Shown here: one piece after another, positions 26,999-30,747 of the stretch
How positions within the stretch are numbered: position 1 is the stretch's first letter
How the letters are laid out: every line of letters starts with the position of its first letter
DNA from: Deltaproteobacteria bacterium RIFCSPHIGHO2_02_FULL_43_33
GTDB taxonomy: Bacteria; Desulfobacterota; GWC2-55-46; UBA9637
DNA: 35,085 nucleotides
NCBI GenBank assembly: GCA_001798165.1
Contig: MGRL01000098.1
Coordinates: 1 to 35,085, forward strand
Direction of reading: 5' to 3'
Position numbers and translations under genes: made by a program
Notes under the pieces: model-generated
The model's input: only the letters and a program-made list of their open reading frames with translations
Databases searched by the model: none
Told to the model about the DNA's origin: nothing

Positions 26999-28070
26999 TC
27001 CGCTCTCAATTCATTCCCTGTCATTCACAATCTTTTTTGCCTATCTCCTTGATTTAATCCTCGGCGACCCCAAATGGCTTCCGCATCCTGTAAGATGGAT
27101 TGGCAGCTATATTGCATTTCTTGAAGGTAAGATAAGGCGATTTGCAACCCCCCCAGCCCCCCCTTTAGTAAAGGGGGGGGAAGGGGAGGGTTGGAGTGAA
27201 AAGGTTGGAGGGGTTTTTCTTTTTCTCATTGTTGTTGGAACAGTATTTGGTTTGGTGTGGTTTTTATTATATTTCTCATTTCTAATTTCTCATTTCTTAT
27301 TTCTTATTTTTTCTATCTTCCTCGCCTATACCACCCTTTCCATAAAATCCCTGCATCAGGAGGCATATGGAGTTGTAGGGGAGATTGAAAAGGTTTCCCC
27401 CCCTCCCTTGCCCTCCCCCCTTGCGGGGGAGGGTTGGGTGGGGGGACATCTTGATAGAGCCAGGGAAAGGCTTTCCAATATTGTCGGCCGTGATACGCAA
27501 AATCTATCAGAAGAAGAAATCTATCGCGCTGTTGTTGAAACCATCGCCGAAAATACATCCGACGGCATTATTGCCCCTTTTTTTTATCTGGCAATAGGCG
27601 GACCTGCGCTGGCTTTGACGTATAAGGCGGTCAATACCCTTGATTCAATGGTCGGCTATAAAAACGAGAAATACAAAAACTTCGGCTGGTTTTCTGCAAG
27701 AATGGATGATATTGCCAATTTCATCCCTGCAAGGATTACAGCGATACTCATGGTTGCTGCCTCTTTCATCTTGAGGCTTGATTGGAAAAATTCTTTAAGA
27801 ATAATTTTGAGGGATTCAGGGAATCACCCAAGCCCCAATGCAGGTTATCCTGAGGCAGCAGCGGCAGGGGCATTGGGTTTGCAATTGGGCGGCACAAATT
27901 ATTATTTCGGAGAGCCTCATCACAGGCCGTTCATCGGGGACAAGAATAATGAGTTTACGATTAAATCGGTAAAAGATACGGTAAAGATTATGCATCTGAC
28001 GGCATTTCTTGGCGTTGTTTTATTTTCAGGTTTTTGGTTACTCATTGGTTTATTATTTGATAATTGCTAA
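26985..28070 (+). CDS. cobD: Adenosylcobinamide-phosphate synthase with repeat inserts
   Basis: Membrane enzyme (CobD/CbiB) that attaches aminopropanol phosphate to adenosylcobyric acid in cobamide synthesis. Family blocks are LILGDPKWLPHPVRWIG, NIVGRDTQNLS, VVETIAENTSDGIIAPFFY, YKAVNTLDSMVGY and ARMDDIANFIPAR. At 361 residues it is some 40 longer than usual. Extra segments TPPAPPLVKGGEGEGW (about 55-70) and PPPLPSPLAGEGWVGG (about 139-154) are coded by CCCCTC-type hairpins. A transmembrane stretch (FLISHFLFLIF) is coded by ATTTCTC tandem units. The catalytic blocks are intact and the frame is open. No other cobamide gene is in the window. Its start overlaps the DUF4149 gene. Confidence 0.9.
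   Translation: MLSVSPLSIHSLSFTIFFAYLLDLILGDPKWLPHPVRWIGSYIAFLEGKIRRFATPPAPPLVKGGEGEGWSEKVGGVFLFLIVVGTVFGLVWFLLYFSFLISHFLFLIFSIFLAYTTLSIKSLHQEAYGVVGEIEKVSPPPLPSPLAGEGWVGGHLDRARERLSNIVGRDTQNLSEEEIYRAVVETIAENTSDGIIAPFFYLAIGGPALALTYKAVNTLDSMVGYKNEKYKNFGWFSARMDDIANFIPARITAILMVAASFILRLDWKNSLRIILRDSGNHPSPNAGYPEAAAAGALGLQLGGTNYYFGEPHHRPFIGDKNNEFTIKSVKDTVKIMHLTAFLGVVLFSGFWLLIGLLFDNC
27147..27192 (+). repeat. In-frame CCCCCCTTTAGTAAAGGGGGG hairpin in cobD (insert 1)
   Basis: CCCCCCTTTAGTAAAGGGGG forms a near-perfect hairpin and encodes PPAPPLVKGGEGEG between RRFAT and WSEK. Confidence 0.8.
27270..27312 (+). repeat. ATTTCTC tandem units coding a cobD membrane segment
   Basis: TTTCTCATTTCTAATTTCTC and further TTTCTTA units run for about 40 bases and encode FSFLISHFLFLIF. 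The tract is in frame and part of a predicted membrane helix. Confidence 0.7.
27398..27450 (+). repeat. In-frame CCCTCCCCCCTTGCGGGGGAGGG hairpin in cobD (insert 2)
   Basis: CCTCCCCCCTTGCGGGGGAG forms the core stem, with outer CCCCCC and GGGGGG arms. It encodes PPPLPSPLAGEGWVGG between GEIEKVS and HLDRARERL. Confidence 0.8.
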
Positions 28071-28279: not shown

Positions 28280-28516
28280 AATTCACGCTCAAAAACTGGT
28301 GAGATGCAAGGCGCTGAGGAGCGAGCAGCGGGAGCATACTGGGGACAGATTTCAAATCTGTCCCCAAGTGAGCAGCGCAGCGGTTGTGAGGCGAAGCCGA
28401 AACAATTCTTGAAGTCAACGCAAGGGGAATACTACTCATAATCCAAATTGAGATTCCTCGCTTCGCTCGGAACAGGCTTCGGCAACACAGCAGATGGCCA
28501 TTTTTCAGCGTGAATT
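28280..28516. repeat. 237-bp element with AATTCACGCTGAAAAA inverted ends
   Basis: Left end AATTCACGCTCAAAAACTGG and right end CCATTTTTCAGCGTGAATT match over about 17 positions. It contains the 27-bp palindrome at 28340-28366 and fills the acetate--CoA ligase leader. Single copies of the end sequence occur after both ligase genes (near 30748 and 34586). Confidence 0.7.
28340..28366. repeat. 27-bp perfect palindrome (intergenic copy)
   Basis: TGGGGACAGATTT-C-AAATCTGTCCCCA, identical to 29803-29829 inside the downstream ligase gene. Confidence 0.9.
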
Positions 28517-28530
28517 GGTAAGGAGGCTGT

Positions 28531-30747
28531 GTGCTGGACAATTTTTTTAGACCCAAATCCGTTGCAGTCATAGGAGCATCAAGGGAAGAGGGAAAGACAG
28601 GGCACAGCATCCTCGCAAACCTTATCAATGATAAACTTGTCCTCGCAGGCCTGCCCTCGAATGGTTCTATCGGGGGCAGTAAGCGGGGATTCCCCGGCAA
28701 AATATTTCCGGTAAACCCCAAATCTTCTGAAATTCTCGGACTCAAGACATTTCCATCGGTTTTAGATGCAGACTCCGACATAGACCTTGCAATAATCGTA
28801 ATCCCGCCAAAATTTATACCGGCGGCGCTTGATGATTGCGCCAAAAAAGGCGTAAGGTCTGCCATTATCATATCTGCCGGTTTTAAGGAAACAGGCGCAG
28901 AAGGCGCAAGGCTTGAAAAGGAAATTGTATCAAAGGCAAAAGCTCTTGGCATAAGACTTCTCGGCCCGAACTGTCTTGGGCTTATAGACACCAATTCAAA
29001 CCTAAATGCCTCTTTTGCAAAGGGTATGCCGCCAAAAGGCAGGATTGCGTTCTTCTCGCAATCAGGCGCGCTTTGCACTGCAATACTTGACTGGGCAATT
29101 GGCACAAATGTTGGATTTTCAAAATTTATTAGTCTAGGCAACAAGGCTGATTTATCTGAAATTGATTTGCTTGAGTATCTGGCAAATGATGATGAAACTT
29201 CCGTTATCCTCGGCTATCTTGAGGGCATTGAAAACGGAAAGGCATTTATGGACATTGCAAAAAAGGCTGTCCAGAAAAAGCCTGTTATACTTATAAAGGC
29301 CGGCGGCACTCAAGCAGGCGCAAGGGCAGCATCCTCGCATACAGGCACGCTTGCAGGCTCTGACAAGGCATTTAATGCCGCATTTTTCCAAACAGGCATT
29401 ATAAGGGCAATGTCCATAGAGGAACTTTTTGACTATGCAATCCTCTTTGCAGAGCAGCCTTTGCCGCAAGGCAGCAGGCTTGCCATCATAACAAACGCAG
29501 GCGGGCCAGGGATTATTGCCGCTGATGCAGTAGAGAATACAAAAGGGATTGAGATGGCGCAATTTTCAAGCGATACGCTTGACAGCTTAAGGCAGAAACT
29601 CCCTCCAACAGCAGGTCTATTCAATCCTGTGGATGTGATAGGCGATGCAAAATCCGACAGATACAAAGATGCTCTAAATATTGTATTAAATGACAACAAT
29701 GTTGACGCAGGGCTTGTTTTGCTCACGCCTCAGGCAATGACAGATGTGGATAATATTGCGAGGGCTGTTGTAGGAGTAATCGCCCCCTTTATCCCCCTTT
29801 TATGGGGACAGATTTCAAATCTGTCCCCACAGGGGGACAGGGGGAGGATTGCCTCTACAAATTCCCAAAAGACCATTATGACATCATTCATGGGAGAGGT
29901 CTCTGTAAGGAATGCAGTAAACATATTGCAGGAAAACGGAGTCCCGAATTATCCATATCCTGAAAGGGCTGTCCGGTCATTTGCAAGGATGGCGCAGTAT
30001 GTGGAAACACTTAAATTGCCTGATGATAAACCAGTTTCATTCAATGTAGACAAAGCCCGTGCAGAAGACATATTAAAAAAAGCAGTTGATAACGGCAAGG
30101 CAATTATTTTAGATGAGGCAAAATCAATCATAGAGGCTTATGGTTTTAAAACGCCTGATGCGGTTCTTGCAGAGACATCAAATGAGGCAGTAAAGGCAGC
30201 AGAAAAGCTGGGCTATCCGGTTGTTATGAAGATTGCCTCCCCCGACATTATCCATAAGACAGAGGTGGGCGGCGTGCGGGTTGGCCTGAAGGATAAAAGA
30301 GAGGTAAAAAAAGCCTTTCTTGAAATGACATCCAAGGCAAAAAGACATATACCGAATGCAATAATTCTTGGCGTCAACATTCAGAAAATGGTAAAAGGCA
30401 AAGAGGTAATCCTCGGCATGAGCCATGACAGGAGCTTCGGCCCTCTCATAATGTTCGGGCTTGGAGGCATATATGTAGAGGTGATGAAGGATGTTGCCTT
30501 TCGGGTGGCGCCGTTTTTGCGGCGGGATGTTGAGTCCATGCTTGAAGAAGTTAAGGGCTTTCCAATCCTAAAAGGCGTGCGCGGCGAGAAAAAATCTGAT
30601 ATAAATGCCCTGATAAATGCAATCTTAAGATTGTCGCAATTAGTTACGGATTTCCCTGAGATTATAGAGATGGACATAAATCCATTGATGGTTTTGCCTG
30701 AAGGGGAAGGGGTTGTGGCGGTGGATGTGAGGATGGGGATAGGTTAA
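28531..30747 (+). CDS. acd: Acetate--CoA ligase (ADP-forming), fused alpha-beta, with repeat inserts
   Basis: Makes acetate (or another acid) and ATP from acyl-CoA, ADP and phosphate, or the reverse. It is a 738-residue fusion: CoA-binding domain (SVAVIGASREEGKTG), succinyl-CoA-ligase-like domain with the phospho-His loop SSHTGTLAGSD, and a C-terminal ATP-grasp (KLGYPVVMKIASPDIIHKTEVGG). It is longer than the usual 690-700 residues. PSNGSIGGSKRGF (about 42-54) is coded by a CCCTCGAATGGTTCTATCGG hairpin, and VIAPFIPLLWGQISNLSPQG and following residues by a GTAG...CTAC element. GTG start with AAGGAGG upstream. The leader is wholly repeat sequence. The acid specificity is unknown. Confidence 0.88.
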   Translation: MLDNFFRPKSVAVIGASREEGKTGHSILANLINDKLVLAGLPSNGSIGGSKRGFPGKIFPVNPKSSEILGLKTFPSVLDADSDIDLAIIVIPPKFIPAALDDCAKKGVRSAIIISAGFKETGAEGARLEKEIVSKAKALGIRLLGPNCLGLIDTNSNLNASFAKGMPPKGRIAFFSQSGALCTAILDWAIGTNVGFSKFISLGNKADLSEIDLLEYLANDDETSVILGYLEGIENGKAFMDIAKKAVQKKPVILIKAGGTQAGARAASSHTGTLAGSDKAFNAAFFQTGIIRAMSIEELFDYAILFAEQPLPQGSRLAIITNAGGPGIIAADAVENTKGIEMAQFSSDTLDSLRQKLPPTAGLFNPVDVIGDAKSDRYKDALNIVLNDNNVDAGLVLLTPQAMTDVDNIARAVVGVIAPFIPLLWGQISNLSPQGDRGRIASTNSQKTIMTSFMGEVSVRNAVNILQENGVPNYPYPERAVRSFARMAQYVETLKLPDDKPVSFNVDKARAEDILKKAVDNGKAIILDEAKSIIEAYGFKTPDAVLAETSNEAVKAAEKLGYPVVMKIASPDIIHKTEVGGVRVGLKDKREVKKAFLEMTSKAKRHIPNAIILGVNIQKMVKGKEVILGMSHDRSFGPLIMFGLGGIYVEVMKDVAFRVAPFLRRDVESMLEEVKGFPILKGVRGEKKSDINALINAILRLSQLVTDFPEIIEMDINPLMVLPEGEGVVAVDVRMGIG
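28651..28679 (+). repeat. In-frame CCCGAATG-TTCTATCGGG hairpin in acd (insert 1)
   Basis: CTGCCCTCGA and TCGGGGGCAG form the stem around ATGGTTCTA. The same loop occurs at 12724-12747 (inverted) and 34632-34658. Confidence 0.8.
29770..29858 (+). repeat. GTAG...CTAC element in frame inside acd (insert 2)
   Basis: Left arm GTAGGAGTAATCGCCCCC and right arm GGGGGAGGATTGCCTCTAC are inverted. The centre (29803-29829) is the 27-bp palindrome also found at 28340-28366. The 89 bases have no stop in the acd frame. Confidence 0.85.

Follow-up and report, generated by a model that had tools for sequence, protein, structure and literature searches.

Palindromes that lie in frame in coding sequence are best known from Rickettsia. 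The very small mobile repeats of cyanobacteria, a subject of Elhai et al. in 2008, are reportedly units of about 21-27 nt, some of them inside other repeats. Rickettsia palindromic elements (RPEs) are palindromic repeats that many unrelated genes carry in frame (review PMC10969869), and REP-type units of R. conorii have CGTC ends (PMC3733652). In the GTAG-tagged REP/RAYT systems small palindromes are tied to Y1 transposases (PMC2817692, PMC3733652), and intragenic REP copies are known in several species (PMC3733652). The TIR repeats of TIR-associated tyrosine transposases (TIRYTs) carry a GGGGWSAS motif, and some TIR families are self-complementary (Di Nocera et al. 2013, PMC3733652); TIRYTs are largely the transposases of subclass 2.1 (PMC6006769).

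The window analysed here, the whole stretch of 35,085 nucleotides from a groundwater bacterium, contains in the gene acd two small palindromic repeats, one within the other, placed in frame in a variable loop. The host gene (28531..30747, + strand) encodes an ADP-forming acetate/acyl--CoA ligase of 738 aa, related to PDB entry 8wzu (1.4e-162) and scoring 563 bits against TIGR02717, just below the cut-off of 567. As the sequence-only reading had claimed, the frame (ORF 28531-30747) runs without a stop through the entire insert. The inner repeat is a perfect palindrome of 27 bp, TGGGGACAGATTT-C-AAATCTGTCCCCA (29803..29829), whose peptide here is WGQISNLSP and whose 25-mer core has 33 copies in the genome. 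It occupies the loop of an outer palindrome of the CCTCCCCC...GGGGGAGG family (29781..29847, with the boundary placed by comparison of copies). The remainder of the 89-bp span (29770..29858) is acd flank: GTAG (29770..29773, + strand) is no end of the repeat family and is also present in the repeat-free acd of G005 and G001, and CTAC (29855..29858, + strand) is also present in that of G005. The flanks GTAGGAGTAAT/ATTGCCTCTAC within the span pair imperfectly with each other. The span can fold as a single hairpin, and the 99 nt around the insert give one long hairpin with z = -6.6 against shuffles. The sequence and positions of the palindrome, GTAG and CTAC thus agree with what had first been read, as does an unchanged non-coding copy 1.4 kb upstream: an identical 27-mer (28340..28366) lies in the cbiB-acd intergenic region, 1463 bp from that of acd, where shuffles lead one to expect 0. 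This copy sits within another repeat, AGCATACT[..]AAGTGAGCAGCG, which is seen again in L012 and L013 and, reversed, in L010.

Comparison with relatives defines the size of the acd insert. The compared stretch, its lengths taken by direct reading and not by automatic measurement, has 161 nt in the source genome (G000), whereas G005 has 107 nt there, and G006, G007 and G010 have 83-86 nt. The net gain over G006, G007 and G010 is 75-78 nt, or 25-26 codons, which bears out the earlier estimate of about 25 added residues. All four close orthologues (G005, G006, G007 and G010; 86-88% amino acid identity over the alignment) are without the nest, and the acd copy itself is present in one genome only. 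In the structural model the insert forms an unstructured loop (residues 419-444, pLDDT <50) between the helix 406-416 and the strand 448-453, and at this place 8wzu has merely a few residues between two aligned stretches.

Two units are mobile here, the 27-mer and the palindrome CCTCCCCC...GGGGGAGG, and each of them occurs without the other. The outer one stands without the 27-mer in L262-L267 and L272, as a short-looped unit of some 40 bp; in L265 it is in frame in a gene resembling fabZ by eye, and L271 has a related C-rich insert in a metG-like gene. The 27-mer stands without the outer palindrome in many genes of G000. Some 15 outer copies contain the 27-mer, either intact or in a decayed or interrupted version, and in L015, L074 and L075 the 27-mer in turn encloses a third palindrome, TCCGCC...GGCGGA, which builds a nest of three levels. 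One dnaE gene (L015 1625 and 2003, G000:C44) carries in frame both such a three-level nest and, apart from it, a bare 27-mer. A nested palindrome also lies within a TPP riboswitch (L014 1921-2084, G000:C40), which is still recognised by an Rfam match that spans it. The flanks of the outer copies pair mutually at 5.1 of 8 positions against 3.2 by chance (p = 5e-5; n = 22, hand-curated), the pairing is weak for bare 27-mer copies (p = 0.07), and in 12 of 90 palindromes from named genomes four or more adjacent flank bases are complementary, versus 0.8% expected. It is possible, and we put it forward tentatively, that this is a self-nesting system in which tiny palindrome families of one bacterial order insert into each other's hairpin loops. 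If so, conserved proteins would be hit repeatedly in the same surface loops, and core enzymes as well as a riboswitch would have a lasting supply of loop variants. In an unrelated bin (L143, 6049 and 6493) the palindrome is found twice between GAAACAAA and TTTGTTTC, as a longer repeat with the same core.

Searched elsewhere in the genome, the 27-mer proved to be a family, with 33 exact copies in G000 when any central base is allowed and 24 with the C/G centre of the acd copy; a reversed-pattern control gave 0. T precedes and A follows the palindrome in 33/33 copies. Twenty of the 33 are in frame in genes, every genic copy preserving the frame. Hosts matched by NCBIfam models, a few of them under the curated cut-offs (ScpA and the amidotransferase, for example), are LeuRS, DnaE, RecJ, SelB (two copies), SdhB/FrdB, TrpS, ScpA, an RluB-type pseudouridine synthase, a glutamine amidotransferase, NnrD, QueA, TsaD, Fhs, IlvB and TruA; a methyltransferase host is clear to the superfamily only, and the QueH-like and DUF1015-like hosts were named by eye. 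Copies in ORFs of at least 200 aa amount to 21/33 (64%) versus 65% of random positions, so that G000 shows no depletion, while depletion in such ORFs is seen for 90 copies from named genomes (46% vs 80%); the test is crude, as antisense ORFs enter it both for the copies and for the random positions. These hosts suggest that repeats can remodel conserved proteins beyond the known Rickettsia case.

The likeness to RPEs that had been noticed at the outset is supported: here too a palindrome is inserted in frame in unrelated genes, the host gene is kept open, and orthologues exist without the insert. RPEs differ in being about 150 bp long and of other sequence, and their descriptions set them apart from the present unit of 27 bp, which has no CGTC tag; CGTC/GACG lies near 1/33 copies, and that copy is within another repeat. 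With the GTAG REP/RAYT systems the family shares a small palindrome linked to Y1 transposases, but here the palindrome is perfect, has no GTAG tag and is not depleted in genes of G000 (20/33 genic). The palindrome acts like RPEs and intragenic REPs but apparently forms a family different from them, marked by systematic nesting and a plausible transposon parentage. A literature text search with the sequence and the peptides returned unrelated papers only.

The parentage is indicated by the halves of the palindrome. The 27-mer consists of two GGGGACAGATTT 12-mers placed head to head around one base, and the half-palindrome followed by ATTT, GGGGACAGATTTATTT, was searched in 59 genomes. In G016:C329 (L345) it lies at both ends, at 657 and about 1398, of a Y1 ORF of 234 aa (698-1400). 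In G002:C64 (L343) it closes a Y1 ORF cut by the contig start, on the only assembled side; that ORF is 74% identical to L345. L345 scores 79.7 bits against REP_Tyr_transpos, the NCBI model of REP-associated tyrosine transposases, whose cut-off is 80, and Y1_Tnp is its sole Pfam match. The C-terminal helix-turn-helix characteristic of subclass 2.1 was not found in L345 with Pfam, and we therefore do not file it as a TIRYT of that subclass. Like TIRYT TIRs, the half-palindrome fits GGGGWSAS (PMC3733652, PMC6006769), with GGGGACAG at each end of the 27-mer, and is inverted at both ends of the Y1 gene in G016:C329. The differences are that the ends are here fused as a 27-mer, that the copies are largely genic, in frame and nested in other palindromes, and that the inverted placement at a Y1 gene is not seen in G000 itself. 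The description as REP-like holds to the extent that, in relatives, genes for REP-type tyrosine transposases are bounded by half of the 27-mer, and falls as to the GTAG tag.

Because GGGGACAGATTT is the terminal tag of a Y1 (HUH) unit in relatives, the 27-mer looks like a transposase unit without its interior. We consider, with a probability of roughly 60%, that it is a minimal non-autonomous REP/TIR-type element, made of transposon ends joined head to head and tolerated in surface loops. The observations on which this reading builds are the nesting, the independence of the units, the 33 copies with 20 in frame, the empty orthologues, the sharing of single copies and the half-palindromes at transposase genes. 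In the proposed mechanism, the palindrome GGGGACAGATTTCAAATCTGTCCCC would fold, when single-stranded, into a hairpin; a Y1 transposase would transfer such hairpins to single-stranded DNA targets, frequently the loop of another hairpin, and insertion there would lead to nesting. Genic copies would persist where the frame is kept and the surface loop is tolerant. We infer that the copies were mobilised by a transposase of the L345 type, or by a relative in trans, and that the insert peptides are translated and neutral. Mobilisation by the cognate clade is put no more firmly than this since that clade was not found intact in G000 and Y1 gene counts do not closely track palindrome counts. The 27-mer is not adjacent to any of the four Y1 genes of G000, where no intact close cognate transposase was found, the best Y1 relatives being 35-44% identical; the RAYT-like genes of G000 and G001 have a related end, GGGGACGGTTCT. 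In G008 there are 8 copies of the palindrome but no match to PF01797, though a transposase fragment is present, and G016 has the cognate transposase without the full palindrome. The flanks also differ, T...A for the 27-mer versus A...T for the transposase units, and tblastn of the Y1 proteins of G000, which are distant queries, against 80 named palindrome-bearing loci gave no match. The palindrome is found in 10/11 genomes of the order, the source genome included, the exception being 62% complete, and is absent from 48/48 other genomes of the class that were searched. Among the matches listed, the identical 25-mer is also carried by bins of Gammaproteobacteria, Nitrospirae and others, a broad spread that a widespread transposase tag would explain with no transfer of the 27-mer itself. 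The interest of the family is that its palindrome can be connected, through the ends of the units, with a named family of transposases and that it is lodged in core genes such as leuS, dnaE, trpS and tsaD. Together with the empty sites in sequenced relatives, this makes it possible to test by what route the repeats move and how host proteins tolerate them.

Those sites were compared over orthologous stretches of 13 genes in up to eight relatives, the net gain being taken where the orthologue is repeat-free. It is +24 to +27 nt in rluB, +21 in the DUF1015-like gene, +12 to +24 in dnaE, +18 in the queH-like gene, selB, trpS and scpA, +15 in recJ, the amidotransferase and the methyltransferase, and +6 in leuS. 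A clean insertion would add 27 nt; the gains being mostly smaller, resident loop codons must have been lost at insertion or later. No repeat-free tsaD was present among the orthologues examined, each having another repeat in the same loop, and in leuS, tsaD and the queH-like gene other repeats occupy the same loops in other genomes. The LeuRS and TsaD loops of relatives (L196, L198, L247, L248, L250) hold short tandem repeats in frame, with units close to seven bases in length (AATCCGC and GGGGTCA, for example). No target-site duplication was visible, in loops too diverged for fixing exact junctions. Copies at the same site in separate genomes were found for ilvB and recJ in G001, trpS and leuS in G002, and the amidotransferase in G003 and G005. 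Such sharing is patchy and the palindrome tends to exceed its flanks in conservation; repeated hits on one loop, recombination or conversion could explain the pattern. The recJ copy of G001 is weak evidence for vertical inheritance because this genome has two recJ loci (L208, L211). One of them is nearly identical to recJ of G005, suggesting a mixed bin or strain mixture.

From these data a spread independent of transposase can be argued, in which replication template switching, hairpin-primed copying or gene conversion would carry the palindrome into variable loops, replacing codons and homogenising copies. It would accommodate the small net gains, the conservation of shared copies beyond their flanks, the nesting and the inversion of inner segments, the unrelated repeats, short tandem arrays included, in the same loops elsewhere, and a source genome without cognate transposase. 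However, it leaves unexplained why each half is identical to the tag that ends a transposase unit and why the unit is a constant 27 bp with T...A ends in 33/33 copies, and we hold it to be a rather doubtful account. Selection of the palindrome for a host function, be it DNA topology, mRNA structure or a useful peptide, is quite unlikely. The copies are well conserved among themselves and the GTDxKSVP frame is used in 13/20 genic copies (binomial p = 0.004), but all three frames occur, the distribution among relatives is patchy, the loop is disordered in the acd model, and selection against Cys, Trp and stops would produce the same bias. For annotators, the stretches GTDFKSVP/GTDLKSVP, GDRFxICP and WGQISNLSP are repeat-derived in these genomes and no conserved motifs. 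Very unlikely is the single 89-bp GTAG-tagged REP-like element, inserted whole, that the sequence-only reading had proposed: the hairpin does have GTAG and CTAC at its base, and the tag that REPs usually carry is GTAG (PMC2817692), but the two occur together at 1/33 copies, that of acd, the repeat-free acd of G005 has both at the same place, and the inner units occur alone, so that the span resolves into two different repeats plus acd flank. An assembly artefact of the metagenome bin, as a draft of 126 contigs, the end of the G001 acd contig exactly at the site and an acd copy in a single genome might suggest, is hardly credible given same-site copies in separate genomes and genic copies that are all in frame.

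Other segments of the neighbourhood have a comparable appearance. A second in-frame hairpin-forming segment of acd, CTGCCCTCGAATGGTTCTATCGGGGGCAG (28636-28690 of the window), is present in G001, G006 and G010 and absent from G005 and G007; residues 35-51, in its region, are likewise of low confidence in the model. Upstream of acd, cbiB contains two further in-frame palindromes with G/C runs, at 27148-27190 and 27396-27447, with the peptides TPPAPPLVKGGEGEG and PPPLPSPLAGEGWVGG.
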